64,000 bases of DNA. Source: Prochlorococcus sp. AG-347-K17 (GTDB taxonomy: Bacteria > Cyanobacteriota > Cyanobacteriia > PCC-6307 > Cyanobiaceae). Position 1 is the stretch's first letter. Each line of letters starts with the position of its first letter. The notes beneath the pieces are model-generated. The model saw only the letters and a list, made by a program, of their open reading frames with translations, was not told where the DNA came from and searched no databases. Position numbers and translations under genes: made by a program. The DNA lies in NCBI GenBank assembly GCA_003281385.1, contig QCCE01000001.1:124001-188000 (forward strand), in the 5' to 3' direction. Positions 26,587 through 58,085 of the stretch are shown here, in pieces.

Positions 26587-28425
26587 TCACTCCCATTCGG
26601 GTACTATTTGCTTCAAAATTGAAAGTGATTTATCAATATTATAGTTAATTAATGATTCCTCTATCTTTTCTATTAATGGTAATAATTTTTCATAATTTAT
26701 ATATTTTTCCTCAGCTTTATAAATTAGTGGGTGTGATGTAGCTTTTGAATTATTATCTATTAAAAGTTCTTCAGATAGTTTTTCGCCAGGTCTCAACCCA
26801 GTAAAAACTATTTCCATATCACCATTTAAGTTGTCTTCATTTTTAATTTTAAGACCACTTAAACGTATCATTTGCTTTGCAAGATTAAGAATTTTAATAG
26901 GTTTACCCATATCAAGTAAAAATACCTCTCCTCCTTTTGCAAGAGCCGAAGCTTGTATAACTAATTGAGAGGCTTCTTTAAGAGTCATAAAATAACGTAT
27001 AACCTCTGGATGAGTTACTGTTAGCGGAATGCGCGATTTTATTTGTTTTTTAAAAAGAGGAATTACTGAACCTGAAGAATTTAATACATTACCAAATCTG
27101 ACCATTGAAAAACATGTTTCATCAAATTTGTTGTCAAAAGCCTGAAACAAAATTTCGGATACTCTTTTAGAAGCTCCCATTATATTTTTTGGCCTGACTG
27201 CTTTATCGCTAGAAATTAATATGACTTTAGGGACCTTATAGTAGGATGCAATTTTACAAATAATAAAAGAAGATATGATGTTGTTATATAACCCTTGTAT
27301 TTGATTTTTCTCTACTATGTTTACATGCTTATATGCAGAAGTATGAAAAATCAATTCAACTTTATTTGTTTTAATTAAGTCTTTAATTAAGGCTTTATCA
27401 CAACAATTACCAAGAACAAAAGATATATTATTTTCAATTTCATATTCTTTAAAAATATTTATTATTTCATAAAGATTTTTTTCATTACTATCTAATAAGA
27501 TCAATTTCTTGGGTCCCATTTTAATAATTTGCGAGCTAATCTCACTACCTATTGAACCTCCAGCGCCTGTAATCAGAATTGTTTTATTTTTAATACCTTT
27601 TTTTAATAATTTATTAACAGGTTTGACAATATCTCTTTCAAGTAAATTTTCAATTTCAATTCGCCTAAGGTTACTTATGCTTGCTTTGCCTTTAGTAATT
27701 TCTTCGATTGAGGGGACTTCTAATATTGAAAATCCCAAATCTTGAACTTTGTAGATTATTTGTCTTCTTCTTTCGATTGAAATAGATGGGATTGCCAATA
27801 AAATGTGATCTAATTCATATTTAATCTTTCTTAAATATTCTGATGAATAAATTTTAATACCTCCAATATTCCTCCCCCACAGATTTTTATTGTCATCAAT
27901 AATAAACTTAATCTTGTAATTTCCAACAGTACTTAAAGCATTTATTAATTGAGCCCCTGCCGATCCTGCTCCATAAATAGCGACTATTTGCCCTTCTTTC
28001 TTAGAGCCTGATAAAGATCTTACATAATCTCTCAATCCAATTTTGACTAAGCTGTTTAAATTAAAAATAACAATGTAGAGAAGTGGCCAAATACTTTTTG
28101 GAGGCATTTCAAAATCAAAAAAGTAACCAACTAAAGGAGTCCCAAAAACCAAAAGAAAATTACTTATTAAAGATTTATATATAAAAAAGCTATTTGTGTA
28201 AGTTAATAAACCTCTGTAATATCCAGTAAAAATATAAATGGGAATTGCCAATGTACATATTACTGGAATTATCCATAATGAATTTTGAAAATATTGACTA
28301 AAAGGATTTGAAATTCTTAACCAGAAAGAAAACCAAACAGCAAAAACTAAAATATTTAAATCAACAATTAAAAGAATAACTTTTCTTTTCCATACTTCTA
28401 ATTTTAAGATTCGAGTATAAATCAT
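26587..28425 (-). CDS. Membrane-anchored nucleotide-sugar 4,6-dehydratase (CapD/WbpM/PglF family)
   Basis: Four N-terminal TMs, two Rossmann domains (IYGAGSAGAQL, ITGAGGSIGSEI), MGASKRVSE. Confidence 0.93.
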   Translation of the reverse strand: MIYTRILKLEVWKRKVILLIVDLNILVFAVWFSFWLRISNPFSQYFQNSLWIIPVICTLAIPIYIFTGYYRGLLTYTNSFFIYKSLISNFLLVFGTPLVGYFFDFEMPPKSIWPLLYIVIFNLNSLVKIGLRDYVRSLSGSKKEGQIVAIYGAGSAGAQLINALSTVGNYKIKFIIDDNKNLWGRNIGGIKIYSSEYLRKIKYELDHILLAIPSISIERRRQIIYKVQDLGFSILEVPSIEEITKGKASISNLRRIEIENLLERDIVKPVNKLLKKGIKNKTILITGAGGSIGSEISSQIIKMGPKKLILLDSNEKNLYEIINIFKEYEIENNISFVLGNCCDKALIKDLIKTNKVELIFHTSAYKHVNIVEKNQIQGLYNNIISSFIICKIASYYKVPKVILISSDKAVRPKNIMGASKRVSEILFQAFDNKFDETCFSMVRFGNVLNSSGSVIPLFKKQIKSRIPLTVTHPEVIRYFMTLKEASQLVIQASALAKGGEVFLLDMGKPIKILNLAKQMIRLSGLKIKNEDNLNGDMEIVFTGLRPGEKLSEELLIDNNSKATSHPLIYKAEEKYINYEKLLPLIEKIEESLINYNIDKSLSILKQIVPEWE

Positions 28426-28500: not shown

Positions 28501-29103
28501 ATGAAACAACATGAGAATTTTAATACTTTGAGCATTCATCCGACGTCAATAATAGATCAAGGAGCAATAATTGGAGAAGACACAAAAATCTGGCACTGGA
28601 CACACATCTGCTCTGGTGCCGAAATTGGTAGAAACTGTTCATTAGGGCAAAATGTATTTGTTGGGAACAAAGTAAAAATTGGAAATAATACAAAAATACA
28701 AAACAATGTTTCTATTTTTGATAATGTAATTATTGAAAAAAACGTTTTTTGTGGACCAAGCATGGTTTTTACAAATGTTTATAACCCGAGATCTGAAGTA
28801 AACAGAAAAAAAGAGTACCGATTGACGATTATCAGAGAGGGAGCAACTCTAGGAGCAAATTGTACAATTATTTGTGGAGTTACTGTAGGTAAATATGCTT
28901 TTATTGGTGCAGGGACTGTTGTTAATAAAAATGTTAAAGATTTTGCTTTAATGGTAGGAGTACCTGCAAAACAAATTGGATGGATGAGCTCTTATGGAGA
29001 AAGGATTAACCTACCTTTATACGGAGAGGGGTTTTGGGAATGTCACAAAACTGGCGACCGATATCAACTCAAGGGTGATCTAATAAGTCATACTAAAGGA
29101 TAA
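28501..29103 (+). CDS. WbpD/WlbB-like LbH N-acetyltransferase
   Basis: [45 protein letters not shown]; hexapeptide repeats. Confidence 0.92.
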
Positions 29104-29115
29104 CTAATATTAATA

Positions 29116-30270
29116 ATGGAATTTATCAATCTTAATGCTCAACAACAAAAGTTAACACCAAAGGGTATAACCCTAAGAGAGGATATTGAACAAAGAATTA
29201 AATCAGTTTTAGACCATGGGAAATATATTTTAGGGCCTGAAGTTTTGCAGCTTGAGAATGCCTTAGCGGCATATACTGGGGTTAAATATTGTATTGGAGT
29301 TTCAAGTGGAACCGATGCTCTATTAGTGGCACTAATGGCAATAGGAATTAAGCCTGGTGATGAAGTAATTACAACTCCATTTTCCTTCTTCTCAACTGTC
29401 GAAACAATCTTACTTTTAGGAGCAAAACCAGTTTTTGTAGACATTGATGTAAATACTTACAACATAGATCCAGAAAAAATAGAGATTGCCATATCAAATA
29501 AAACAAAAGCTATTATTGCCGTAAGCCTTTATGGCCAGCCTGCTGATTTCAATAAAATTAATAAAATTGGGGAGGATTATAAACTTGCAATTATTGAAGA
29601 CGGAGCTCAATCTTTTGGTTCAAAACATAATCAAAGAAGAAGTAGTGGATTATCTACCATTGGTACAACAAGCTTCTTCCCGTCTAAACCTCTAGGATGT
29701 TACGGAGATGGCGGGGCCTGTTTCACTAATAATGAAGAATTAGCAATAAAAATGAGAGAGATATCAGTTCACGGACAGAACAAGAGATATTCCCATAACC
29801 AAATAGGTATAAATGGTCGATTAGATACTATACAGGCAGCAATTCTTCTTGCGAAATTAAGTATATTTGATTTCGAAGTTGAAGCAAGAATGACAATTGG
29901 CAATAAATATACGAAGAAACTTAAAAATATGGGTGTTTGCACAACACCTTTTATTTCTTCAGAAAATACCAGTGTGTATGCGCAATATACAATTCAAATT
30001 GAAAATAGAGATAAAGTTATTAAAAAAATGAAAACTAAAGGAATTCCAACTTCTATACATTATCCTTCTTTGCTATCTGATCAAGAGGCATTAAACACAA
30101 AAACAAAAAATATAATAAAAAATATTTTCACAAAAAATCTATATAAGAGTAAGGAACTAAATAATGCAAAATCAATAACAAAAAAAGTCATGAGTTTACC
30201 TATGCATCCTTATTTAAGCGATGATGATCAAGATCTTGTTGTTAATAACTTAATAGAATCGATTAATTAA
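29116..30270 (+). CDS. WbpE-like DegT/DnrJ/EryC1 aminotransferase
   Basis: YCIGVSSGTDALLVALMA, IIEDGAQSFGSKH, SFFPSKPLGCYGDGGA. Confidence 0.93.
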   Translation: MEFINLNAQQQKLTPKGITLREDIEQRIKSVLDHGKYILGPEVLQLENALAAYTGVKYCIGVSSGTDALLVALMAIGIKPGDEVITTPFSFFSTVETILLLGAKPVFVDIDVNTYNIDPEKIEIAISNKTKAIIAVSLYGQPADFNKINKIGEDYKLAIIEDGAQSFGSKHNQRRSSGLSTIGTTSFFPSKPLGCYGDGGACFTNNEELAIKMREISVHGQNKRYSHNQIGINGRLDTIQAAILLAKLSIFDFEVEARMTIGNKYTKKLKNMGVCTTPFISSENTSVYAQYTIQIENRDKVIKKMKTKGIPTSIHYPSLLSDQEALNTKTKNIIKNIFTKNLYKSKELNNAKSITKKVMSLPMHPYLSDDDQDLVVNNLIESIN

Positions 30271-30280
30271 TTCTTAAAAA

Positions 30281-31600
30281 ATGAAATCTTCTAAATCATT
30301 CACGAGTTTATTAAATTTATTCAAAAATAAAAAGGCTGAAATTGGCATTATAGGAATGGGTTATGTAGGTTTACCCTTGGCTATAGCTTATGCAGATAAA
30401 GGTTTCAAGGTTTTAGGAATAGATATAGATAATAAAAAAGTTGAAAAAATTAATAAGTCTATCAGTTATATCAATCATATTTCTTCAAAAAAATTAAAAA
30501 ATTTAGTTAACTCTAAGCATTTAAAAGCAACTTCAAATTTTAATGAAGTAAGTAATTTAGATGCAATTATTCTTTGTCTACCAACACCACTTAACAAATA
30601 CAGAGAACCTGATTTAAGTTTTATAAAAAATACTTTACATTCTATAAAACCTTTTCTCAAAAGAGGTCAGGTTTTAAGTTTAGAAAGTACTACTTATCCA
30701 GGTACTACTAAAGAGGAAATTCTCCCTTTTATAAGAAGTTGCGGATTTAATATTGGTGAAGATTTCTTCCTAATTTATTCACCAGAAAGAGAGGATCCAG
30801 GTAACAAGGATTTTCATACTTGTAATATTCCAAAAGTTTTAGGTGGGATAACATCAAACTGCAACGAAATTGGAATTTCTTTGTATAAGCCAGTAATCTC
30901 AGAGATCGTGGAAGTTAAAGATACTTCTACAGCAGAAATGACAAAATTATTGGAAAATATTCATAGAGCAGTAAATATTGGTTTAATGAACGAATTAAAA
31001 CCATTAGCAGATAAAATGGGAATAGATTTATATGAAGTTATAAGAGCTGCTTCAACTAAACCTTTTGGCTTTGTTGCATATTACCCAGGCCCTGGACTTG
31101 GAGGCCATTGTATACCAATTGATCCGTTTTACTTAACATGGAAAGCTAGGGAATATGGAATGCATACAAGATTTATAGAATTGGCTGGGGAAATAAATTC
31201 CGCAATGCCACATTATGTAGTAAGTCAAACCAGTAATGCCTTAAATAAGCGAGGGAAACCTTTAAAGGATAGTAAGATTTTAATTCTTGGTATTAGTTAC
31301 AAAAAAAATATTGATGATCTAAGAGAATCACCTTCACTAGTAATTATTGATTTATTAAATAATAAAGGAGCTAAAGTAGATTACTGCGATCCATATTTCG
31401 AAGATTTACCAAAAACAAGAAAATTCCAATTCAATTTAAAAAGAATTGATTTATCTGAAGAAAATCTAAAGCAGGCTGATGCCGTTATAGTATCTACTGA
31501 TCATGATTTGTTTGATTATGCATTGATAAAGAGATTTAGCAAACTGATAATTGATACGCGTGGAAGATTTAAACCAGAAAATAATATAATAAGAGGATAA
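30281..31600 (+). CDS. Nucleotide-sugar dehydrogenase, WbpA/UDP-GlcNAc 6-dehydrogenase type
   Basis: GIIGMGYVGLPLAIAYADKGFKVLGIDID, GPGLGGHCIPIDPFYLTWKA. Confidence 0.92.
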   Translation: MKSSKSFTSLLNLFKNKKAEIGIIGMGYVGLPLAIAYADKGFKVLGIDIDNKKVEKINKSISYINHISSKKLKNLVNSKHLKATSNFNEVSNLDAIILCLPTPLNKYREPDLSFIKNTLHSIKPFLKRGQVLSLESTTYPGTTKEEILPFIRSCGFNIGEDFFLIYSPEREDPGNKDFHTCNIPKVLGGITSNCNEIGISLYKPVISEIVEVKDTSTAEMTKLLENIHRAVNIGLMNELKPLADKMGIDLYEVIRAASTKPFGFVAYYPGPGLGGHCIPIDPFYLTWKAREYGMHTRFIELAGEINSAMPHYVVSQTSNALNKRGKPLKDSKILILGISYKKNIDDLRESPSLVIIDLLNNKGAKVDYCDPYFEDLPKTRKFQFNLKRIDLSEENLKQADAVIVSTDHDLFDYALIKRFSKLIIDTRGRFKPENNIIRG

Positions 31601-31633: not shown

Positions 31634-33472
31634 ATGTGCGGATTAATTGGAGTTATATCTAAAGAAAAAATATCAACAAAAGATCTTTGGGAAATATCAA
31701 AAGATGCGGAAAGGAGGGGTCTTGATTCGAGTGGTATTTTATTTAATAGTGATCAAAATATTTTCCTAAAGAGATCTGATAAATCTCTTACTAAATTAAT
31801 AAGCATTTCAAATTTTAGTAAAACCCAATTTGTTATCGGACATAGCAGATTAATTACAAATAGTTTCGCTGAGAATCAGCCTGTTAAAAGAAAATTTATT
31901 TATGTTATTCACAATGGCATAATATTGAATCATAATGAAATATGGGAAAAATTAAATCTTAAACCATATCAAAAAATTGATACTGAAGCTCTAGCAGGAA
32001 TAGTAGAAAAAAACTTAATTGAAAGTAAAAAATATTCTAAAAAGATTAATTACATTGAAATTTTTGAGAAAATAAAAAAATATTCAAAAGGAACAATTGC
32101 CTGTGCAATTGTTATCCCCAAATTAGGTAAACTGCTCTTATATTCAAATAATGGAAGTTTATATATAGGTAAAAAAAATAAACAGATTATTTTCAGTTCA
32201 GAAAAATATATTCTTGAAAAGCTATCCTGTAAAAAAATTTGTCAGATTCGCGAGGAAGGTAAATTAATTGATATACCTAAAATATATAAAGAACCAATAA
32301 TAATAGAAAATAATGAAAAAAGATTAAATCTTGTGCCAAAATTAGGTAAATCTATATCACTTGAGAAATTATTACATCATGAAAAAAATAACTTGAAGAG
32401 ATGTTCAAAATGCATTTTACCAGAAACCATGCCTTATATTTCTTTTGATAAAAATAATATTTGTAATTATTGCAAGAATTATAAAATTAGAAATAACCCT
32501 AAGCCCAAAAAAGAGTTAACTAAATTACTTAAAAATTATTTAAATAAGAAGGGGGAAAACTGCATAGTTCCATTTTCCGGAGGAAGAGATAGTTGCTATG
32601 CTCTTCATATAATAATAAATGAATTAGGTCTAAAACCAATAACGTATACATACGACTGGGGAATGGTTACAGACTTGGGAAGAAGAAATATAAGTAGAAT
32701 GTCCTCAATTTTGGGGGTAGAGAATATTATTGTAGCCGCTAATATTGAAGAGAAAAGAAAAAATATAAGGATAAACCTAGAAGCCTGGTTAAAATCTCCA
32801 CATTTAGGAATGATAAGCTTACTTACCGCTGGAGATAAACATTTTTTTCAACACATAGAGTCTGTTAAAAAGCGGACAAATATCAAATTAAATCTATGGG
32901 GTATAAATCCATTAGAAGTTACACATTTTAAATCAGGCTTTTTAGGTATAAAACCAGATTTTGAAGAAAAAAGAGTTTATAGTCATGGATTATCGAAACA
33001 GATTACATATCAAAAATTAAGACTAAAAGAAATGATAAAAAATCCATCTTATTTAAATTCATCACTTATAGATACAATGTTGGGTGAATATTTTAGAAGT
33101 TTCAAGAAAAAAACTGATTATTTTCATCTATATGATTATTGGAAATGGGATGAAAATCTAATAAATAATACTTTAACTAATCAATATGGGTGGGAATTAG
33201 CCCCTGATACTACTACCACCTGGAGGATAGGAGATGGTACTGCTGCTTTTTATAATTATATATACTTTAAAGTAGCTGGTTTTACTGAACATGACACCTT
33301 TAGAAGCAATCAAATTAGAGAAGGTGATATTACAAGAACAGAGGCTTTAAACTTAATAGAAAAAGAAAATTTACCAAGATTTCCCAATATAAAATGGTAC
33401 TTAGATGCAGTTGGATTAGATTTCGAAGAAGTCATAAAAATAATAAACAATATCAAGCCAATCTTTAATTGA
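31634..33472 (+). CDS. Fusion: N-terminal class-II glutamine amidotransferase + C-terminal WbpG-like PP-loop N-acetyl sugar amidotransferase
   Basis: MCGLIGVIS (N-terminal nucleophile Cys), GHSRLIT, HNGIILNHNE; then CSKCILPETMPYISF...CNYC and PP-loop PFSGGRDSCYALH. Confidence 0.9.
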   Translation: MCGLIGVISKEKISTKDLWEISKDAERRGLDSSGILFNSDQNIFLKRSDKSLTKLISISNFSKTQFVIGHSRLITNSFAENQPVKRKFIYVIHNGIILNHNEIWEKLNLKPYQKIDTEALAGIVEKNLIESKKYSKKINYIEIFEKIKKYSKGTIACAIVIPKLGKLLLYSNNGSLYIGKKNKQIIFSSEKYILEKLSCKKICQIREEGKLIDIPKIYKEPIIIENNEKRLNLVPKLGKSISLEKLLHHEKNNLKRCSKCILPETMPYISFDKNNICNYCKNYKIRNNPKPKKELTKLLKNYLNKKGENCIVPFSGGRDSCYALHIIINELGLKPITYTYDWGMVTDLGRRNISRMSSILGVENIIVAANIEEKRKNIRINLEAWLKSPHLGMISLLTAGDKHFFQHIESVKKRTNIKLNLWGINPLEVTHFKSGFLGIKPDFEEKRVYSHGLSKQITYQKLRLKEMIKNPSYLNSSLIDTMLGEYFRSFKKKTDYFHLYDYWKWDENLINNTLTNQYGWELAPDTTTTWRIGDGTAAFYNYIYFKVAGFTEHDTFRSNQIREGDITRTEALNLIEKENLPRFPNIKWYLDAVGLDFEEVIKIINNIKPIFN

Positions 33473-34680
33473 TGAAATCAATTTGGTATATATCAAAATA
33501 TGTAAAAACATCACATATAGGTAATAGTGGTGCAAGAGGATTTTTTCTTTTGGATGAACTATCTAAAAGGGGTTATGATTGCACTATATTTTCTTCATAT
33601 CCCTTTAAATATTCAAAAAAATTTAAAAAAGTTATTGTAAATATAAAAAGAAATTTTAAATATGTTTATTTAAATTCATATAAATACAAAAATTCAAATT
33701 CAATTTCTAGAGTAATTAGTTGGTTAGATTTTGAAATTAAACTTTTATTTTTAAAAAAGAAATATTTATCTAAACCTGACGTAATTATAGTTTCAAGTTT
33801 ATCCTTACTTACAATAATAAATGGACTTTTTTTAAAAAAAAAATATTCATGTAAATTATTTTTTGAAGTAAGAGACATATGGCCTTTAACACTAGTTGAA
33901 GAAGGTGGATTTCATAATAAAAATTTTTTAATATATTTACTAAAAATAATAGAAATTGTTGGATATAAGTATTCGGATCATATTATAGGTACGATGCCAA
34001 ACTTAAAAGAACATGTTGATAATGTTCTTGGTTTCCCAAAAAAAGTTTCCTGTATACCTATTGGATTTGATATCAAAGAAACGTCTAAATCAAGTAAAAT
34101 TAATAAAAATATTAAAAATCTTATACCAAAGAATAAATTTATAATTGGATATTTTGGAGGTATAGGCATATCAAATGCACTTGATACTTTCTTCGAATCT
34201 ATAAAAAAACTGGAAAATAATGAAGAAATTCATTTTATTGTTGCTGGGGAAGGCGATTTAAGAAAAAATTATTATGAGCAAACTGAACATTTAAAAAATA
34301 TAACATTTTTACCCATGATTAAAAAAAAATTCATTTACTCCCTTATGTCTTTTTGTGATCTTTTATATTTCAGTACTAATAATTCCAAAGTATGGGACTA
34401 TGGTCAATCTTTAAATAAAGTTGTTGATTATATGCTAGCAGGTATACCAATTATTGGATCATATGATGGTTATAAGTCAATGATTAATGAATCTGGATGT
34501 GGAGAATTTATAAAGCCAAATGATATTGATCAACATTTAAAAAATTTTTTAAAATACAAAAATATGCCTATACAAGATAGAAAAAATTTAGGTAATAAAG
34601 GTAAAAAATGGATCATTCAAAATAGATCTTATAAAAAACTAAGCTATTTTTTATCAGAAATCATTTCAAAAAATACTTAA
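33472..34680 (+). CDS. GT4 family glycosyltransferase (WbuB-like)
   Basis: ATG overlaps upstream stop (TGATG); FFEVRDIWPLTLVEEG, GYFGGIGISNALDTFFES, VVDYMLAGIPIIGSYDG. Confidence 0.88.
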   Translation: MKSIWYISKYVKTSHIGNSGARGFFLLDELSKRGYDCTIFSSYPFKYSKKFKKVIVNIKRNFKYVYLNSYKYKNSNSISRVISWLDFEIKLLFLKKKYLSKPDVIIVSSLSLLTIINGLFLKKKYSCKLFFEVRDIWPLTLVEEGGFHNKNFLIYLLKIIEIVGYKYSDHIIGTMPNLKEHVDNVLGFPKKVSCIPIGFDIKETSKSSKINKNIKNLIPKNKFIIGYFGGIGISNALDTFFESIKKLENNEEIHFIVAGEGDLRKNYYEQTEHLKNITFLPMIKKKFIYSLMSFCDLLYFSTNNSKVWDYGQSLNKVVDYMLAGIPIIGSYDGYKSMINESGCGEFIKPNDIDQHLKNFLKYKNMPIQDRKNLGNKGKKWIIQNRSYKKLSYFLSEIISKNT

Positions 34681-35289
34681 ATGAATTATTTAAGAATAAA
34701 ATATTTTTTTGACAAATTTTTTGCTTTGATGGGATTAATTCTTTTATTCCCATTATTAATAGTTATTGGATTAGTAATAAAATTCAATTTAGGAAAACCT
34801 ATTTTTTTTATTCAAAAAAGACCAGGTTTAAAAGAAAAATTTTTTTATCTAATAAAGTTCAGAACTATGAATAGTAAAAAAGATAAATTTGGTAATTTAT
34901 TTAGTGATGATGAAAGACTTACATCTCTTGGCAAATGGTTAAGAAAAACATCGATTGACGAAATACCTTCTTTAATAAATATTATTAAGGGTGAAATGAG
35001 TTTTGTTGGCCCGAGACCATTACTAGCCGAATATCTAAATTTATATTCGGATTTTGAAAGGAAAAGACACTCTGTAAAACCAGGTCTGACTGGATTAGCC
35101 CAAATAAAAGGAAGGAATAATTTATCTTGGAAAAAAAAATTTGAATATGATATTTTATATGTAGATAACATTTCTTTTATTTTAGATTTAAAAATTTTTC
35201 TTTTAACTTTTTTAAAAGTATTTAAAAGAGAAGGAATATATCCAAAAGATAAAAAAATTGTCATCCCTTTCAAAGGTCATAATGAATAA
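34681..35289 (+). CDS. Undecaprenyl-phosphate sugar phosphotransferase (PglC/WbpL-like initiating transferase)
   Basis: FFIQKRPGLKEKFFYLIKFRTM, LRKTSIDEIPSLINIIKGEMSFVGPRPLL. Confidence 0.93.
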   Translation: MNYLRIKYFFDKFFALMGLILLFPLLIVIGLVIKFNLGKPIFFIQKRPGLKEKFFYLIKFRTMNSKKDKFGNLFSDDERLTSLGKWLRKTSIDEIPSLINIIKGEMSFVGPRPLLAEYLNLYSDFERKRHSVKPGLTGLAQIKGRNNLSWKKKFEYDILYVDNISFILDLKIFLLTFLKVFKREGIYPKDKKIVIPFKGHNE

Positions 35290-35295
35290 TTTATT

Positions 35296-35943
35296 TTGGA
35301 AAAAAAACTTTTAATTTTAGGATGTGGTGGCCATGGTAAGGTAGTTGCAGATATTGCAGAAAAATGTGCATATTTTAAAGACATCTCTTTCCTAGATAAA
35401 AAAAGTTTAAGCAAATATTCTAGATATACAGTTTTTGACAATAAAATTATAGGAGATATTAATGAAGAAAATATTGAGAAATTTTCCAAAGAATATACAC
35501 ATTTTTTTGTTGGGATTGGAGACAATAAAGTTCGTATTCAATGGTTAAAAATAATTAAAAGAATGAATATTAAAATAACAAAAATAATAGATCCATCCGC
35601 CGAGATTTCTAAATATTCTGAGATAGATGAAGGAACATTTATAAATAAAAATACTGTAATTCAATGTGATTCTAAAATAAAATCTGGTTCTATATTAAAT
35701 ACTTCATCTACTATTGATCACGACTGCATAATTGGAGAAGGTACGCATATTTCCCCTGGTGTGAATATAGCTGGAAATGTAAAAGTTGGGAAAAATTGTT
35801 GGATTGGTATTGGATCAAAGATAGTACAAAATATAAAAATCGGAAATAACGTTATAGTTGGAGGTGGTTCATTAGTTTTAAATAATATCCCAAATGATGT
35901 TATGGTTTTTGGGAGTCCATCGAAGATTATAAAAAATATTTGA
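35296..35943 (+). CDS. PglD/NeuD-like sugar O/N-acyltransferase
   Basis: LLILGCGGHGKVVADIAE, hexapeptide repeats, DHDCIIGEGTHISPGVNIAG; TTG start. Confidence 0.9.
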   Translation: MEKKLLILGCGGHGKVVADIAEKCAYFKDISFLDKKSLSKYSRYTVFDNKIIGDINEENIEKFSKEYTHFFVGIGDNKVRIQWLKIIKRMNIKITKIIDPSAEISKYSEIDEGTFINKNTVIQCDSKIKSGSILNTSSTIDHDCIIGEGTHISPGVNIAGNVKVGKNCWIGIGSKIVQNIKIGNNVIVGGGSLVLNNIPNDVMVFGSPSKIIKNI

Positions 35944-35948
35944 TTTAA

Positions 35949-37124
35949 ATGAAATTACCAAGCTGGCCTTACTACTCAAAAGATGAAATAAATGCAGTAG
36001 AAGAAGTCCTTAAATCAGGCGCTGTTAATTATTGGACAGGAAAGATATCTAAATCATTTGAAAATGAATTTGCTAATTTTTGCGGATGCAAATATTCTTT
36101 AGCCTTAGCAAACGGGTCTTTAGCACTATCATGTGCTTATTTAGCGATTGGTATAAAAAAGAATGATGAAGTAATTACAACACCAAGATCTTTTATTGCC
36201 ACTGCAAGTAGTGCATCATTATTGGGGGCAAAAATAGTATTTGCAGATGTGAACAGAGATTCTGGAAATATTACAGCTGAAAATATCGAACCTTTGATTA
36301 CAAAAAAAACAAAGGCAATAGTAGTCGTTCATTTAGCTGGTTGGCCAGTAGATATATTAAAAATTTCGAAACTTGCGAAAAATTATAATATTCCACTAAT
36401 AGAAGATTGCTCCCAAGCTCATGGAGCAGAAGTAACAATTAACGAAAAAAGTTATTCTATTGGTCAGTTTGGAGATATCAATACATGGAGTTTTTGCCAA
36501 GATAAGATAATTTCAACAGGAGGAGAAGGCGGTATGATTACGACTAATAATAAAAAGTATTATGAAAAAATTTGGTCCTTTAAAGATCACGGGAAATCCT
36601 TTTTAAAATTCAAAGATAACTCATCTAATCTTGAATATAGGTATATACATGATAATTTAGGCTCTAATTTTAGAATTACAGAGATGCAAAGTGCTATTGG
36701 TAGATTACAACTCAAAAAATTAAAAAATTGGCGAGAAATTAGAACTAAAAATGCTGAAATAATTATTAATCAATTAAAAAATAATAGATTAATAAGGGTC
36801 CCAAAACCTAACAATGAAGTGATCCATGGTTGGTACAAATTTAATTGTTTTTTAAATTTAGAATTATTAAAAGATGATTGGAATAGGAAAAAAATTATTG
36901 GAGAAATTAGATTAAAAGGATTTCCAGCCTTTCAAGGTTCATGTAGTGAACTTTATCTTGAAAAATGTTTTTTAAAAAAATCTATTGATCCAATTATATT
37001 ACCTATTGCAAAAGAATTAGGAAATACAAATTTAACATTCCTAATCCATCCCACTATTAATGAAAATGAAATGCTTGAATATGCTGAAAATATAAATAAT
37101 GTTTTTAAATTAGCTATGAAATAA
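35949..37124 (+). CDS. PglE-like DegT/DnrJ/EryC1 aminotransferase
   Basis: LPSWPYYSKDEINAVEEVLKSGAVNYWTG, LIEDCSQAHGAE, WSFCQDKIISTGGEGGM. Confidence 0.92.
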   Translation: MKLPSWPYYSKDEINAVEEVLKSGAVNYWTGKISKSFENEFANFCGCKYSLALANGSLALSCAYLAIGIKKNDEVITTPRSFIATASSASLLGAKIVFADVNRDSGNITAENIEPLITKKTKAIVVVHLAGWPVDILKISKLAKNYNIPLIEDCSQAHGAEVTINEKSYSIGQFGDINTWSFCQDKIISTGGEGGMITTNNKKYYEKIWSFKDHGKSFLKFKDNSSNLEYRYIHDNLGSNFRITEMQSAIGRLQLKKLKNWREIRTKNAEIIINQLKNNRLIRVPKPNNEVIHGWYKFNCFLNLELLKDDWNRKKIIGEIRLKGFPAFQGSCSELYLEKCFLKKSIDPIILPIAKELGNTNLTFLIHPTINENEMLEYAENINNVFKLAMK

Positions 37125-37127
37125 TAA

Positions 37128-38261
37128 TTAAGTTAAATCTCTTTCCAAAGGTAGTTCAACCTCTAATCCTGTTTTTGAAGAACGATAAGCCGCTATTAAT
37201 AATTCAAGACTTTTTAAACCCTCTTCACCTGAACAAATTGCTTCTGACTCACCCCTCAAATTTTTCAACATATTTTCATAATATGGAGGATGACCAAACC
37301 CATAGATATTTGATGTTTCATAACTTGCATTTCTTACCATCTCATCATCTTTATCAGAGTCTGAGAAGTGCCACTCTTCAATCTTATTAACAGCTTTTCC
37401 TCCAATCTTAACTGTACCTTTATCACCAATAATTGTAATAGAACCCTCAATATTATGAGGATAAGTAATCATGGTAACTGCCATAGTTCCTAAAACACCT
37501 TTTTCCCATTTAATTTTCAATACAGCTGTGTCCTCTACTTCAATCTTTCTTGCGACTGTTGAAGTAGAAGCGTTAATACTTTTTACGGGACCAATTAACC
37601 AATCAAGCAAATCAACATAATGGCTTGCCTGATTCATTAAAGCTCCTCCATCAAGCTCTATTGTACCTCTCCAATCATCTTGATCATAGTAGCTCTGTGG
37701 TCTTTGCCAAAAAACATTTACTACAACAAGTCCAATTTTACCAAAACGTTTTTTTAATATCTGATCTTTAACTAAGGTAATTGTTTTATTAAAACGATTT
37801 TGCTTAACAACAAAAAGTTTTACATTTTCATTTTTACAAACTTTAAGCATTTCTAAACCATCATTCCAATTCGTAGCCATTGGTTTTTCAGTACATATAT
37901 TAATTCCTAATTTTGCTGCTATGATAGTTTGCCTTGGATGCAATCCACTTGGGGTAGTGAGAATAATTAAATCAACTTCTAATTTATTATTTTTTATTTC
38001 ATTAAAAAATAAACTATCATTCTGAAATTCTTTTAAATAATCAAGAGATAATTGATATTTTCTTTTGCATTCTTCAATTAAAACTTTAGCTGATTCAATT
38101 CTTCTACTATCTTTATCGCATATAGCTACAAGCTCACACATTTGGTTATGAATAAAGATTGATCTAATATGATTATTCGAAATTCTTCCACAACCGATAA
38201 TTGCGACTTTTATTTTTTGTTTTAAAATTTTTTTTATTTCCATAAAAATTCTAAATATCAA
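37128..38261 (-). CDS. Gfo/Idh/MocA family oxidoreductase
   Basis: VAIIGCGRISNNHI, CTEKPMATNWNDGLEML, GGALMNQASHYVDLLDWLIG. Confidence 0.92.
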   Translation of the reverse strand: MIFRIFMEIKKILKQKIKVAIIGCGRISNNHIRSIFIHNQMCELVAICDKDSRRIESAKVLIEECKRKYQLSLDYLKEFQNDSLFFNEIKNNKLEVDLIILTTPSGLHPRQTIIAAKLGINICTEKPMATNWNDGLEMLKVCKNENVKLFVVKQNRFNKTITLVKDQILKKRFGKIGLVVVNVFWQRPQSYYDQDDWRGTIELDGGALMNQASHYVDLLDWLIGPVKSINASTSTVARKIEVEDTAVLKIKWEKGVLGTMAVTMITYPHNIEGSITIIGDKGTVKIGGKAVNKIEEWHFSDSDKDDEMVRNASYETSNIYGFGHPPYYENMLKNLRGESEAICSGEEGLKSLELLIAAYRSSKTGLEVELPLERDLT

Positions 38262-38337: not shown

Positions 38338-39495
38338 TTAAGAGTATTTATTTAATAAAATTCCAAATTTATTCGTTAAAAAATTCTGAGTTTTCTTTAA
38401 TAAATTATAATATTTTGTCCAATTTTTAAAAGAGCTATGTTCTCTATTTTTATTCCCAATATATTCTTCTAGTAATTCTACTGTAATTCCTAATTTCTTT
38501 GCAATATATAACTTATCAAAATCTATTTCATCTTTACAATAAAGATCCTCTTTCAAAATTTCAATTGCATCACTTCTTTTTAATTGTCTTGAATTTATTA
38601 AGCTTGACAGGTGAGGGAGTCTTTTATCGATACCAAATTTTTTTGGTAAATAATAATTCTGATAGAAACTTGTAAAGATTGATTCACCATGCTTTCTTTT
38701 ATAATCTTTAAAACCAACCTTTTCGGATAGTTCTCTACAAGCTTCAACTTTGTTATATCTCATATAATTAAGTGGCCTTATAGTTTTAATATTAAAAAAA
38801 ATTGGATATAAAAAATAATATTCAAAAAAGCTTGTAATTTTATAATCCTTTAATTTTTTATCACCAAATTTTTTATAAATATCTTTTATATTTATGGAGT
38901 CATTATTACTCCATAGCCAAGAATCAGGGAAAACCCCTTCAGTCGCAATATTACCCCCTGATAATAAATAATTTATGTTGTTACTTACAGCATACTTATA
39001 CAAATAGCTAATAAATATATGATCTTGTGGAATATCCTGATTTGGTACACCAGCTTTAAGATAGGCCAATTGTAAACTTTTCATTTCCTCCCAATTAACA
39101 ACATGTGTTATCAATTCATATCTACAATATTTGACTATAGATTCAATATTTGAAACTGCTAATTCCGAATTCCACCCAGCATCTATATGAATTACCAAAG
39201 GTTTAAGACCTAACTCATAGACCTTTAATGCTAAGTAAGAGCTATCAATTCCTCCACTTAATCCCAATAAACAGTCAAATTTTTTATTCTTAGAATTTTT
39301 TTTTATTTTATTAAAAATAGTATTTAATCTCCTATTTCCTTCTTCATTTGGAAACCAATTATTATTTTCATAATTTGAAAATTTAATACAATGATTACAT
39401 ACTCCTTGAGAATTGAATTGTATAAATCTATCAGATGTATCCATTACACATCTTTTGCATCTCTTATATTTTGTATGACCATATTTTTTAATCAT
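38338..39495 (-). CDS. N-acetyl sugar amidotransferase, WbpG/PseA-like (stand-alone PP-loop)
   Basis: CKRCVMDTSDRFIQFNSQGVCNHC, LLGLSGGIDSSYLALK; downstream of hisH/hisF homologues. Confidence 0.92.
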   Translation of the reverse strand: MIKKYGHTKYKRCKRCVMDTSDRFIQFNSQGVCNHCIKFSNYENNNWFPNEEGNRRLNTIFNKIKKNSKNKKFDCLLGLSGGIDSSYLALKVYELGLKPLVIHIDAGWNSELAVSNIESIVKYCRYELITHVVNWEEMKSLQLAYLKAGVPNQDIPQDHIFISYLYKYAVSNNINYLLSGGNIATEGVFPDSWLWSNNDSINIKDIYKKFGDKKLKDYKITSFFEYYFLYPIFFNIKTIRPLNYMRYNKVEACRELSEKVGFKDYKRKHGESIFTSFYQNYYLPKKFGIDKRLPHLSSLINSRQLKRSDAIEILKEDLYCKDEIDFDKLYIAKKLGITVELLEEYIGNKNREHSSFKNWTKYYNLLKKTQNFLTNKFGILLNKYS

Positions 39496-39516
39496 TTAGT
39501 ACAAGAAAGAGGTGAT

Positions 39517-40275
39517 TCAAGAAAATAGAGATTTTATTTCTTCATACGTTGGGTAAGTTAATAATACTGCTTTATGGGGACCATAGAAACAAAAAAAAGA
39601 ACCTGCTGCTACAGCACTTGCTCCAGACTTGATAAGTTTTTTCATATCATGCAAACTAGCTATTCCGCCAAGAGATACAATAGGTAAATTTATTTCCTTA
39701 GATAGCATCTCAACAAGTTCATTATCTGGACCTTTTAATAAACCATCCTTATCAACGGAATTAAGGAGAATTTCCCCTACACCAATCTCTGATAAATTCT
39801 TAATAAAATTTATCCAATCATGTTCTAATTTCTTTTTATTAAGGTAGCTATAAATTTTTGGTTTTTTAAATATATTTCTTTTAATGTCAATAGAAATAAT
39901 TATACTTTGGCTCCCAAATTGATTGACTAGTTTACTTATTAATAAGGTATCTTTAAGAGCAACATTATTTAAACAAATTTTCTCGACGCCTAATGCAAAT
40001 ATATCCTTTGCCTGCTGAAGAGTTCTAATACCCCCTCCATAAGATAAAGGCATAAGGCATTCTCCACTGATAGATTCTATAAGTTCATAATTTGGTTCTC
40101 TGTTATTCTTTGTGGCTGATATGTCTATAAGCATAATTTCATCGACCTCTTTTTCATTAAAAATCCTTACCGCATTAAGAGGATCTCCTATATATTTAGA
40201 TTTTGAAAATTGAACAGTTTTAACTAAATTATTATTTTCAATAGTCAAAACAGGAATTACTCTATTGAGAAGCAT
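39517..40275 (-). CDS. hisF: HisF-like cyclase subunit (surface-sugar paralogue)
   Basis: MLLNRVIPVLTIENNNLVKTVQFSKSKYIGDPLNAVRIFNEKEVDEI; clusters with WbpG homologue, not with his genes. Confidence 0.92.
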   Translation of the reverse strand: MLLNRVIPVLTIENNNLVKTVQFSKSKYIGDPLNAVRIFNEKEVDEIMLIDISATKNNREPNYELIESISGECLMPLSYGGGIRTLQQAKDIFALGVEKICLNNVALKDTLLISKLVNQFGSQSIIISIDIKRNIFKKPKIYSYLNKKKLEHDWINFIKNLSEIGVGEILLNSVDKDGLLKGPDNELVEMLSKEINLPIVSLGGIASLHDMKKLIKSGASAVAAGSFFCFYGPHKAVLLTYPTYEEIKSLFS

Positions 40276-40277
40276 AT

Positions 40278-40892
40278 TTATAAATTTAGAAAATTTTCAA
40301 AAAGTTCCAAACCAAATTTATGGCTTCTTTCGGGATGAAATTGAACACCGTAGATATTATTTTTTTGAAATGCGGCACAAAATAAATCCCCATAATTACA
40401 TGAAGCTATTTGGATTGTTTTATCTTTTGGCTTGACACAATAGCTATGAACAAAATAAAACCTATATTCTTTATTAAAATTCAAAATTTTATTTTCTTTC
40501 TCAATATTTATATGATTCCATCCCATATGAGGATATCTAAGTTTTTTAGCAGAAATTGTTTTCATATTTACGACATCTGCATCTATCAATTTCAGGCCTG
40601 TTAGTTTACCCTCCTCACTTTTATTACACATTAATTGCATACCTAAACATATCCCCAAAATATTCACATCGCCAGAATCTAAATATTTTTTTAAATCGTT
40701 TGAAAAAGATCCTTTATTTAAAACTTGCATTGCGGCATCAAATTTACCAACCCCAGGTAAAATTAGCTTTGAGTAATCATCTAGTTGACTAGCATTTAAA
40801 ATTCTTTCTCCCCTATATCCAAAACGAGACAGGACACTATTTATTGATCCAAAATTTGCTATTCCTGTATCAATCAAACCTACTTTCTTCAT
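40278..40892 (-). CDS. hisH: HisH-like class-I glutamine amidotransferase
   Basis: LILPGVGKFDAAM, ILGICLGMQLMCNKSEEG, GVQFHPERSHKFGLELFENF. Confidence 0.93.
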   Translation of the reverse strand: MKKVGLIDTGIANFGSINSVLSRFGYRGERILNASQLDDYSKLILPGVGKFDAAMQVLNKGSFSNDLKKYLDSGDVNILGICLGMQLMCNKSEEGKLTGLKLIDADVVNMKTISAKKLRYPHMGWNHINIEKENKILNFNKEYRFYFVHSYCVKPKDKTIQIASCNYGDLFCAAFQKNNIYGVQFHPERSHKFGLELFENFLNL

Positions 40893-54104: not shown

Positions 54105-54914
54105 TTATCCCTCAATTGTTTTCGCTAAATTTATTGCATACTTTAATTGTTCTTTAGTATCAACTGACAAGGCAAAAGTTTTTACCTCATAAGTTCCAAC
54201 TTTTAATCCAGAATCGATTAGCCTTAGTTGCTCTAATTTTTCTACTTTTTCAAGATTTGAGGAAGGCAAATCACTCCATTTATTAAGTACATCTGCCTTG
54301 AAACCATATATTCCAACGTGTCCCCAATATGTATGATGTTCATGCCAATCAGATTTATCTATATCTCTAACAAAAGGTATAGCGCTCCTAGAAAAATATA
54401 TAGCCTCATTATTTTTTGAGATAAGTGTCTTTACAACAGAAGGATTATGTATATCATCTTTATTTAATTTATAAATTGGAGTAATAACAGAAAAATTATT
54501 ATTTTTTTTTAATTCTACATACATCCTTTTTAGAACGTTTGGGTCTAAAAAAGGCTGATCTCCTTGAACATTTATTATGGATGTATTAGCAAGAAAGTAT
54601 GATTTTTTTTCCTTTATTTGTTTTTCATCAATATCCCACGCATACATCAGCAACTTATCTAAAACACTTGAAATACGATCTGTCCCAGTAGTACATTTTT
54701 TTGATGTCATAACAATAATTGATCCCCATTTTTTTGCTTTATTTGCAATCTCATTACTATCAGTGCATATAATAATTTTGGAATTTAAAGAGGCATTTTT
54801 ACAACTTTCATAAGCCCTTTGAAGTAATGATTTTTTATTAATATTTGCAAGTAATTTTCCAGGTAATCTTTTTGATTCTAGTCTTGCAGGAATAACAATT
54901 AAAATTTTTTTCAT
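54105..54914 (-). CDS. kdsB: 3-deoxy-manno-octulosonate cytidylyltransferase (CMP-Kdo synthetase)
   Basis: ILIVIPARLESKRLPGKLLANINKKSLLQRAYE, INVQGDQPFLDP, YWGHVGIYGFK. Confidence 0.95.
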   Translation of the reverse strand: MKKILIVIPARLESKRLPGKLLANINKKSLLQRAYESCKNASLNSKIIICTDSNEIANKAKKWGSIIVMTSKKCTTGTDRISSVLDKLLMYAWDIDEKQIKEKKSYFLANTSIINVQGDQPFLDPNVLKRMYVELKKNNNFSVITPIYKLNKDDIHNPSVVKTLISKNNEAIYFSRSAIPFVRDIDKSDWHEHHTYWGHVGIYGFKADVLNKWSDLPSSNLEKVEKLEQLRLIDSGLKVGTYEVKTFALSVDTKEQLKYAINLAKTIEG

Positions 54915-54924
54915 AAATTAAAAA

Positions 54925-55638
54925 TTAGTCCCAAAGCTTAATAGATTCCTCTCTTTTTCTAAACCAATCTTTTGAAAAAGGACATCCATCATTTCTGAGA
55001 TCTTTAAACCATGGTCCTCCAAGTGTCCAATGAACTAAATTAGGCTTATTTAAGTAGATTAATTTATCCTTATTTTTATCAACCCCGATTAAATAGTTCC
55101 ACTTTTCATTGTTAATTTCGCCAATTTCAGAATCACTATTAAGCCAATGAAAACGATGCAATTCCAATCCAGGCGTTTCATTTACATATTTCACTGATAG
55201 TTTTTTACATTTTTTACAGTTAAATAAAATCATTGAACTCCAGTTTTTTCTAGGGTATTTACTTTGTATTTCACCAAGGAATTTCGTATCTTCTTTTGGT
55301 ATATGCGAATGTTTTGCACACAAAACTGAATAATCATCATTTTTTTGTTCCCATAATTCACCTATATCTCCATATGCCAACATGTCGCAGTCTATGAAGA
55401 TAGCCCAACCCTCATAATCCATTAAGTAAGGGACTAGAAATCTAGTAAATGAAAAATCAGTAGATTGTTTTGGATCTCTATCCCTATAGTAGATTCCTTG
55501 ATTTTGTAATTGGCTAGTTATCAATGGTGTTATGGAAATAGGAATTGAACTTTTGTTATAAAGGGAATCAATAAGAACATTTGCGGCAGCTCTCTCTCTA
55601 TGATCGAATCCAATAAAAATATTAGCTGTTTTTTGCAT
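54925..55638 (-). CDS. GT8-like/DUF glycosyltransferase (ATG at 55638 preferred over 55677)
   Basis: IFIGFDHRERAAANVLIDSL, FLVPYLMDYEGWAIFIDCDMLAYGDIGELW; between kdsA and kdsB. Confidence 0.75.
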   Translation of the reverse strand: MQKTANIFIGFDHRERAAANVLIDSLYNKSSIPISITPLITSQLQNQGIYYRDRDPKQSTDFSFTRFLVPYLMDYEGWAIFIDCDMLAYGDIGELWEQKNDDYSVLCAKHSHIPKEDTKFLGEIQSKYPRKNWSSMILFNCKKCKKLSVKYVNETPGLELHRFHWLNSDSEIGEINNEKWNYLIGVDKNKDKLIYLNKPNLVHWTLGGPWFKDLRNDGCPFSKDWFRKREESIKLWD

Positions 55639-55645
55639 TAATAAT

Positions 55646-56470
55646 CTAAGTACTTTTAGATGGTTTTTCAGGCACAACCATTCTAATTTGTATTAATTCC
55701 TCTAATAAATTTTCTAAACTAGACAGAGGGATCATGTTTGGTCCATCGCTTAATGCATTATTAGGATCTGGATGAGTTTCAATAAAAAGACCATTTATAC
55801 CTACTGCGATTGCAGCTCTTGCTAAAGGAGCTACAAATTCTCTTTGTCCTCCGCTTGAAGTACCTCTCCCTCCTGGATGTTGAACTGAATGTGTGGCATC
55901 AAAAATTACAGGGCATCCAAAGCTTTTTAATTGCTCTAAACCCCGGAAATCAACAACCAAATTATTGTATCCAAAAGATGTTCCTCTTTCTGTAATCCAC
56001 AAACGTTTTGATTCCCTATTTATTCCTGCTTGTTCAGCCTTTTTAACTACTTGTTCCATATCCCATGGTGCTAAAAACTGCCCCTTTTTGATATTTAAAC
56101 ATTTTCCAGTTTTACTTATACTTCTTGCAGCAGATACGATAAGGTCGGTTTGTCTGCATAGAAACGCTGGGATCTGAATTACATCAACCACTTCAGCCAC
56201 TTGATCTACTTGGCTTAAGTCATGAATATCAGTTAGTATTTCTAAACCATATTTTATTTTTACTTCTTCCAAAATTTGGAGACCTTTTTTTAATCCAAAA
56301 CCTCTAAAAGATGTGTAAGAACTTCTATTTGCCTTATCAAAACTTGCTTTAAATATATATTTTATATTAAGACTTTTAGATATCTTCTTAACTTCTTCTG
56401 CAACTTCGAATAATAATTCTTTGCTTTCTATAACGCAAGGACCAGCTATCAAGGTCAGTTGATCATTCAT
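55646..56470 (-). CDS. kdsA: 3-deoxy-8-phosphooctulonate synthase
   Basis: LTLIAGPCVIESKELLFEVAEEV, FKASFDKANRSS, VIFDATHSVQHPGG. Confidence 0.97.
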   Translation of the reverse strand: MNDQLTLIAGPCVIESKELLFEVAEEVKKISKSLNIKYIFKASFDKANRSSYTSFRGFGLKKGLQILEEVKIKYGLEILTDIHDLSQVDQVAEVVDVIQIPAFLCRQTDLIVSAARSISKTGKCLNIKKGQFLAPWDMEQVVKKAEQAGINRESKRLWITERGTSFGYNNLVVDFRGLEQLKSFGCPVIFDATHSVQHPGGRGTSSGGQREFVAPLARAAIAVGINGLFIETHPDPNNALSDGPNMIPLSSLENLLEELIQIRMVVPEKPSKST

Positions 56471-56505
56471 ATCTTACATAACCACTAATAGATATTCTAT
56501 AAAAG

Positions 56506-57099
56506 CTATACATCATTTTTATCTACCCATCCAAAAGATTTATAAAAATCAATAAGTTTATTTACCTTCAATAAAATTTCTGCAACTTCTCGCGCTGCGC
56601 CAAAACCACCTTTTGTTTGCAGTACAATATCAGAATTATTTCTTATTTCTGTAATAGCATCGAGGGGAGAAATAAAGACTGAAACATATTTTTTAACTTT
56701 TAAATCATTTAAGTCGTCCCCAACAAATGCTGTATCAAAATTCCTAAATCCAAGTTCATTTTGCAAAGCTTTTATTTCCTTGACTTTATCTTTAGCGTTT
56801 ATTACACATTTTGTTATCCCCAATTGTTCTGCTCTAATCTTTATCGAATTAGAATTACTACCACTTAAAAAAATAATCTTTAAGCCTTCTTTTAATAGAA
56901 TTTTCAAACCCAAACCATCTTTTACATTAAATTTTTTAGTTACCGTTCCATCATTTGCTATAAAAATACTTCCATCAGTAAGTACTCCATCTACATCAAA
57001 TACTAGTAATTTTATTGCAGTTAATCTCTTAAGAAGATTTTTAAAAAAAAATTTTCTTAATAATTCATTATTGAATGCGAATCTATAAATTCTATTCAT
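56506..57099 (-). CDS. kdsC: 3-deoxy-manno-octulosonate-8-phosphatase
   Basis: KLLVFDVDGVLTDGSIFIANDGTVTKKFNVKDGLGLKIL; FVGDDLNDL. Confidence 0.94.
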   Translation of the reverse strand: MNRIYRFAFNNELLRKFFFKNLLKRLTAIKLLVFDVDGVLTDGSIFIANDGTVTKKFNVKDGLGLKILLKEGLKIIFLSGSNSNSIKIRAEQLGITKCVINAKDKVKEIKALQNELGFRNFDTAFVGDDLNDLKVKKYVSVFISPLDAITEIRNNSDIVLQTKGGFGAAREVAEILLKVNKLIDFYKSFGWVDKNDV

Positions 57100-58085
57100 T
57101 TCCCTAATCCTGCCTTTACCAGGTCATGTAATCTTAATAATCCAATTGTTTTGCCACTTTCACCTATTACTGGCAAAATTGAAACAGGCTTTTTATCATT
57201 ATTTTCCATAAGATTCAATGCATCTATTGCTAATTTATTAGAATTTATCGTGATAGGATTACTGGTCATAAGATCTTTTGCAGACAATTTATCCCAATCT
57301 TTAAACAATCTGCCCTGCAAAGCTCTTCTCAAATCACCATCTGTAATTAAGCCCAAAAAATCATTATTTTTTTTAGGATTTTTAACCAAACAACAACCTA
57401 TTGAATCTTTTGTAATTGCCGAAATTATATCTGGCAATAAAGAATCTATTAATATTGGTTTTAAATCTCTTAAAGGCACCATTAGATCTGACACAGTTAA
57501 GAGTAAGGATTTACCAAGACTACCCCCTGGATGATTGAAAGCAAAATCATTTTGAGAGATACCTTTTCTATACATCCAAACAGCAGCGAGTGAATCTCCT
57601 ATAGCCATTGCGACTGCCGTACTAGCTGTAGGAGCTAAATTCAAGGGACAAACTTCTCTATCAATAGAGGCCTCTAAAACCAGATCACTCTCTTTGGCTA
57701 AACTTGAAAATTTATTTCCCACCAAGGAGATAGTTTTGGTACCTCTTATTTTTAAATGTGGAATAATTTCTAAAATTTCCTTAGTTTCGCCACTATAAGA
57801 AAGTAATAAACAGATATCGTTTTTATCTATTATTCCCAAATCCCCGTGCAGTGCATCTAAAGGACTTAGGTAGAGAGACATGATTCCGATTGAGGAGAAA
57901 GTTGCAGCAATTTTCCTGGCTACAATACCACTTTTACCAACCCCTGATACAACTAACTTCGATTTATTCTCAAAACAAACATTCAGTAGATCTAGAACTC
58001 CCTCTATTTCTTCTTTATTTAATTTATCTGCAGCTGCTCTTATTGCACCTGCCTCTTGAATAAGACAGTCAGAAACATTCATCAT
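57096..58085 (-). CDS. kdsD: Arabinose-5-phosphate isomerase (SIS + CBS)
   Basis: KLVVSGVGKSGIVARKIAATFSSIG, ALHGDLGIIDKNDICLLLSYSGET, C-terminal CBS pair. Confidence 0.95.
   Translation of the reverse strand: MMNVSDCLIQEAGAIRAAADKLNKEEIEGVLDLLNVCFENKSKLVVSGVGKSGIVARKIAATFSSIGIMSLYLSPLDALHGDLGIIDKNDICLLLSYSGETKEILEIIPHLKIRGTKTISLVGNKFSSLAKESDLVLEASIDREVCPLNLAPTASTAVAMAIGDSLAAVWMYRKGISQNDFAFNHPGGSLGKSLLLTVSDLMVPLRDLKPILIDSLLPDIISAITKDSIGCCLVKNPKKNNDFLGLITDGDLRRALQGRLFKDWDKLSAKDLMTSNPITINSNKLAIDALNLMENNDKKPVSILPVIGESGKTIGLLRLHDLVKAGLGK

Follow-up and report, generated by a model that had tools for sequence, protein, structure and literature searches.

Gene content of the locus

The window, by which we mean the whole stretch of 64,000 nucleotides of Prochlorococcus sp. 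AG-347-K17 analysed here, contains a surface polysaccharide island, in which an open reading frame on the plus strand (31634-33472, ATG start, without internal stop) encodes a fusion enzyme of 612 amino acids. Profile matches, residue alignment and an AlphaFold model identify it as a class-II glutaminase (GATase-II) joined to an N-acetyl sugar amidotransferase (NASAT). Upstream lie genes for a WbpM/PglF-like 4,6-dehydratase (26587-28425, minus strand), named by sequence resemblance and syntenic at 80% in a second Prochlorococcus genome (G024), for a WbpD/WlbB-like 3-N-acetyltransferase (28501-29103, plus; 1.1e-89 to 3mqg, which we take to be WlbB), for a WbpE-like aminotransferase (29116-30270, plus; 7e-115 to the WbpE structures 3nyu/3nu7) and for a WbpA-like nucleotide-sugar dehydrogenase (30281-31600, plus), the latter recognised by TIGR03026 and by structures of the ManNAc-DH type. 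On the other side, a GT4 glycosyltransferase frame (33469-34680, plus) overlaps the stop of the fusion by 4 bases, and in 51 of 91 loci the gene immediately 3' of the fusion is a GT4. It is followed by a PglC-like initiating sugar transferase (34681-35289, plus; an open reading frame in conserved gene order), a PglD/NeuD-like acetyltransferase (35296-35943, plus; TIGR03570 above cut-off) and a PglE-like DegT aminotransferase with profile matches (35949-37124, plus), and the order fusion-GT4-PglC-PglD-PglE recurs in many loci. A WbpB/WlbA-like 3-dehydrogenase of the Gfo/Idh type (37128-38261, minus) matches 3q2i/3q2k, presumably WlbA, at about 1e-120, and 3q2i by itself at 1e-122. Further along, the minus strand carries a CMP-Kdo gene set (54105-58085: KdsB, KdsA, KdsC-like and KpsF/KdsD-like), several members of which score above curated cut-offs.

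The window also holds a conventional set, which the preliminary description of this DNA had left out (38338-40892, minus strand, starting 5 kb from the fusion). It consists of a standalone NASAT of the WbuX/WbpG type (38338-39495, minus; TIGR03573, 280 bits), an AglZ/HisF2 acetamidino modification protein (39517-40275, minus; NF038364, 334.7 bits) and a HisH class-I glutaminase, which is the second copy in the genome (40278-40892, minus; TIGR01855, 208 bits), all three above their cut-offs. Since both systems are present, the idea that the fusion has replaced HisH/HisF2 in this genome is ruled out; here it adds to the conventional system and replaces nothing.

Domain composition of the fusion protein

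The glutaminase domain, of the Ntn type, comprises residues 1 to about 215 (31634-32278, plus), with C2 as the nucleophile. Its Pfam matches (PF13537/PF13522), GATase_7 (1.7e-07) and GATase_6 (3.6e-06), exceed the gathering scores, and the GlmS N-terminal domain model covers residues 1-207 (3.8e-19). The cysteine, arginine, asparagine, glycine and aspartate expected of an Ntn glutaminase are present as C2, R72, N94, G95 and D116; they align with C1, R73, N98, G99 and D123 of GlmS, to which we ascribe active-site roles, and are invariant in 89/89 domain-bearing proteins in an alignment of 90 homologues.

Residues from about 250 to 612 (32381-33469, plus) form the NASAT domain. This family is defined by a PP-loop SGGxDS and tetracysteine motifs, and its reaction is poorly characterised (PMC10607449). 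The fusion carries the tetracysteine pattern CxxC...[GN]xCxxC (C257xxC260...C277xxC280) as well as the PP-loop (SGGRDS, 315-320), both kept in 90/90 aligned homologues. TIGR03573 (WbuX) matches residues 255-599 with an E-value of 1e-43, but its 150.1 bits stay below the curated cut-off of 203.2, as do the scores of all surveyed fusions (~118-160 bits), so that the reaction specificity may have drifted. The best PDB match of the C-terminus in phmmer is the Legionella NASAT 8WEX (1.1e-12), the sole solved NASAT structure found.

An AlphaFold model computed from an alignment with 66 homologues reached pLDDT 88.5 and pTM 0.89; in Foldseek its C half matched 8WEX and its N half the GlmS glutaminase 1xff, and also AsnB/PurF. 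Whole-chain AsnB matches have an rmsd above 20 A, hence the model lends no support to an AsnB-like domain arrangement. The best stretch of the asn_synth model covers residues 2-213 only, the C half being NASAT. The co-occurrence of Ntn glutaminase and NASAT motifs in one frame, claimed in the preliminary description, is therefore confirmed by profiles, residues (89/89 and 90/90) and folds. The two findings that it had named as fatal did not materialise: a GATase-II is found at the N-terminus, and the protein is no standard asparagine-synthetase-like enzyme, its synthetase half being a NASAT and NCBIfam 20.0 having no named family for the architecture.

Comparison with known systems

The making of acetamidino sugars is usually ascribed to three proteins, a NASAT and two relatives of histidine-synthesis enzymes that feed it. 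With WbpG/WbuX/PseA (TIGR03573; 8WEX) the fusion shares the tetracysteine zinc site, the SGGxDS PP-loop, the fold of residues 250-612 and an O-antigen context, but its score falls short of the family cut-off, it groups in a separate clade and it brings its own class-II glutaminase, whereas those enzymes depend on HisH/HisF2. Likewise, it resembles the HisH-HisF2-WbpG system of the P. aeruginosa O5 type in proposed reaction, substrate class and pathway genes (WbpA/B/D/E), yet its Ntn class-II glutaminase lies in cis, is unrelated to the class-I HisH and is accompanied by no HisF-like barrel. A class-II glutaminase and a PP-loop domain in one chain are also found in AsnB and the AsnB-like uronate amidases, which we take to be of the WbpS/WbtH type; unlike AsnB, the fusion has a NASAT synthetase half with a zinc tetracysteine, and AsnB homologues are its separate neighbours in many loci. 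With GlmS and PurF it has the glutaminase domain in common, the transferase half being unrelated.

Public annotation names the homologues glucosamine 6-phosphate synthetase, 7-cyano-7-deazaguanine synthase or hypothetical protein, and no description of the fusion was found in the open literature; two papers on E. albertii O-antigens make no mention of these genes. The domains and the reaction family are known; the widespread architecture is apparently undescribed.

Conservation and distribution

A scan of a genome collection returned 269 relatives. The best 80 of these are full length, come from many phyla and are 54-60% identical to the window protein, except for an 83% identical copy in a Prochlorococcus single-cell genome with the gene order of the window; such full-length homologues rule out a chance fusion or an assembly error. 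Agrobacterium and Solidesulfovibrio carry relatives on plasmids, with 57% and 38% identity, respectively. Median identity to the window protein is higher in the NASAT half (68%) than in the glutaminase half (42%). In a tree of the C-domain, obtained by a quick search and with long branches, all fusions form one clade separate from the standalone NASATs (SH-aLRT 100), and the intermixing of phyla suggests horizontal transfer.

Two pairs of fusion loci (L076/L077 and L045/L046) are identical or near-identical in metagenome-assembled genomes (MAGs) assigned to different phyla, which is probably binning contamination, and phylum counts based on MAGs therefore need care. A divergent branch of about 40% identity (40% in Prochlorococcus G091, 38% on the Solidesulfovibrio plasmid) has different gene surroundings. 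As far as seen, the linkage to WbpD is absent in both of these fusions; because G091 has no WbpD match, the substrate of this branch may differ.

Fusion loci apart from the conventional system

In Prochlorococcus G024 (99% complete), a syntenic block WbpM-WbpD-WbpE-WbpA-fusion-GT4-PglC-PglD-PglE-WbpB is present, and beyond WbpB, where the window has its second system, AsnB, a GT4 and a WecB-like epimerase are found. The G024 genome contains one HisH above cut-off, but neither a standalone NASAT nor a HisF2 above cut-off. In two of 5426 E. coli genomes, both from chicken isolates, the fusion lies within the galF-gnd O-antigen cluster, where it is accompanied by WbpB, WbpA, WbpD, WbpE, Wzx, Wzy, a pair of GT4 and an epimerase resembling WecB. 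Within this cluster, which alone was searched, there is no HisF2, HisH or NASAT of its own besides the fusion, and no PglC/D/E; the HisH/HisF nearby belong to the his operon. The E. coli cluster in NZ_CP148493.1 (L111:3767-18058) is a rare O-antigen cluster with broken IS elements, and it is predicted to use 2,3-diacetamido-uronic acids.

Among 50 fusion genomes, HisF2 exceeds the cut-off in 17 and is missing from 33, and a further NASAT exceeds it in 20 and is missing from 30, although some of these absences may be gaps. The fusion thus departs from the rule of a separate HisH and HisF2 as ammonia source, having its own class-II domain and occurring without HisF2 in G024 and in these 33 genomes. 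The earlier suggestion that it can work without HisH/HisF consequently finds comparative support (G024, the E. coli cluster, the genomes without HisF2 or another NASAT), but not from the window itself, in which the conventional set coexists. A fusion of another kind, a 592-aa protein of G245 (L138:9002-10780), has a NASAT above cut-off as its C half and an N half resembling the GT4 N-terminal domain; this 608-aa frame had been considered as a second glutaminase fusion and was rejected on its glycosyltransferase-like N-terminus.

Substrate class

WbpA/B/D/E stand beside the fusion in the window, in G024 and in E. coli. A homologue of WbpD, the UDP-GlcNAc3NA N-acetyltransferase, is present in 48 of the 50 fusion genomes, in 42 cases on the same contig as the fusion and no more than about 32 kb from it (counted from coordinate tables); six of the 48, all from Actinomycetota, are just 32-41% identical. 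Against a background of 14/200 in Prochlorococcus, 3/3 genomes with a close fusion are positive (hypergeometric 3e-4), and against 31/248 in a Pseudomonas family sample, 5/5 (2e-5), both values ignoring shared ancestry and horizontal transfer. This linkage suggests a 2,3-diamino-uronate as the substrate class and so supports what the preliminary description had guessed. As a WecB/WbpI 2-epimerase was not detected in the 91%-complete window genome, the gluco form is favoured, and the substrate of the window enzyme is most likely UDP-GlcNAc3NAcA, which the flanking WbpA, WbpB, WbpE and WbpD would supply.

Proposed reaction and alternatives

We consider it probable that the fusion is a one-chain, glutamine-dependent NASAT, which converts an N-acetyl group of a UDP-2,3-diacetamido-2,3-dideoxy-uronate into an acetamidino group. 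By computation there are two domains, intact active-site residues, a single clade, linkage to the pathway and occurrence without HisH/HisF2. In the most economical reading, the N-terminal glutaminase would hydrolyse glutamine at Cys2, the ammonia would pass within the chain to the NASAT half, the PP-loop would activate the N-acetyl carbonyl, and displacement by ammonia would yield the acetamidino group; the product would then serve as donor for the GT4 encoded directly downstream. Here the ammonia channelling, the AMP chemistry, the choice of the modified N-acetyl and the acceptor are what we infer, and for the NASAT family as a whole the ATP-to-AMP step is itself a proposal (PMC10607449).

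The main rival to the acetamidino reading is uronamide formation, in which the same glutaminase and adenylation would act on the 2,3-diacetamido-uronate at its C6 carboxylate (with a uronamide, as in GlcNAc3NAcylAN, as the product), while WbuX-HisF2-HisH makes the amidine. We hold this to be less likely. Uronamides and acetamidino sugars can share one repeat unit, as in V. vulnificus YJ016 (review PMC3210612), and HisF2, mostly with a standalone NASAT, accompanies the fusion in the window, where WbuX-HisF2-HisH is intact, and in the 17 genomes counted above, so that at least two different amidations are probable there. The domain content, moreover, resembles asparagine-synthetase-type enzymes, judging by the AsnB fold matches of the model. 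Against this, the synthetase half is a NASAT with the zinc tetracysteine and not an AsnB, and a candidate carboxylate amidase is already at hand in G024 and in 17 of 57 fully flanked loci, which have AsnB homologues close to the fusion. Still less probable is that the acetamidino group is placed on L-FucNAc or on QuiNAc4NAc, the product of the PglD/PglE next door. The conserved run from the fusion to PglE would fit this, as would the WecB-like and 4,6-dehydratase-like genes near a NASAT half on a phage contig, but the E. coli cluster combines the fusion with WbpA/B/D/E and lacks PglC/D/E, and WbpD accompanies 48/50 fusion genomes as against PglD in 31/57 fully flanked loci (a 10-kb count, hence not like for like).

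We give very little credence to a vestigial or regulatory glutaminase half, with the NASAT half receiving its ammonia from HisH/HisF2: these lie about 6-7 kb away in the window and a phage homologue without glutaminase exists, but the catalytic residues are unchanged in 89/89 proteins and many fusion genomes lack HisF2. The database annotation of the homologues, under which the fusion would be either QueC-like or a glucosamine-6-phosphate synthetase, is excluded on domain content for practical purposes, as the Pfam/NCBIfam profile searches gave no match to a SIS isomerase domain and the C half is a NASAT.

Returning to the one-chain acetamidino synthase, we see about even chances for the broader proposition that it is a widespread, horizontally moving alternative to HisH-HisF-WbpG, which needs no HisF-like partner and was overlooked through misannotation. 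If true, the annotation of hundreds of genes would be corrected and acetamidino (or uronamide) sugars would become predictable in surface polysaccharides across many phyla; the single-chain version would be simple to purify and assay, and would tell if the HisF partner is dispensable.

Copies on viral contigs

A single-sequence scan of viral contigs found no relatives of the fusion and an alignment-based scan three matches; a phage origin of the fusion was dropped. One contig (IMGVR_UViG_3300032032_000031, L105:10001-11827) bears a full-length fusion with a terminase large subunit gene ~5 kb upstream of it, so that this surface-sugar enzyme seems to be phage-borne. On a 119.5-kb viral contig (L106:9992-11104), a standalone NASAT half of 370 aa and 64% identity, without glutaminase, falls inside the fusion clade; its neighbours are the WecB-like and 4,6-dehydratase-like genes mentioned above, among other sugar-nucleotide and glycosyltransferase genes.
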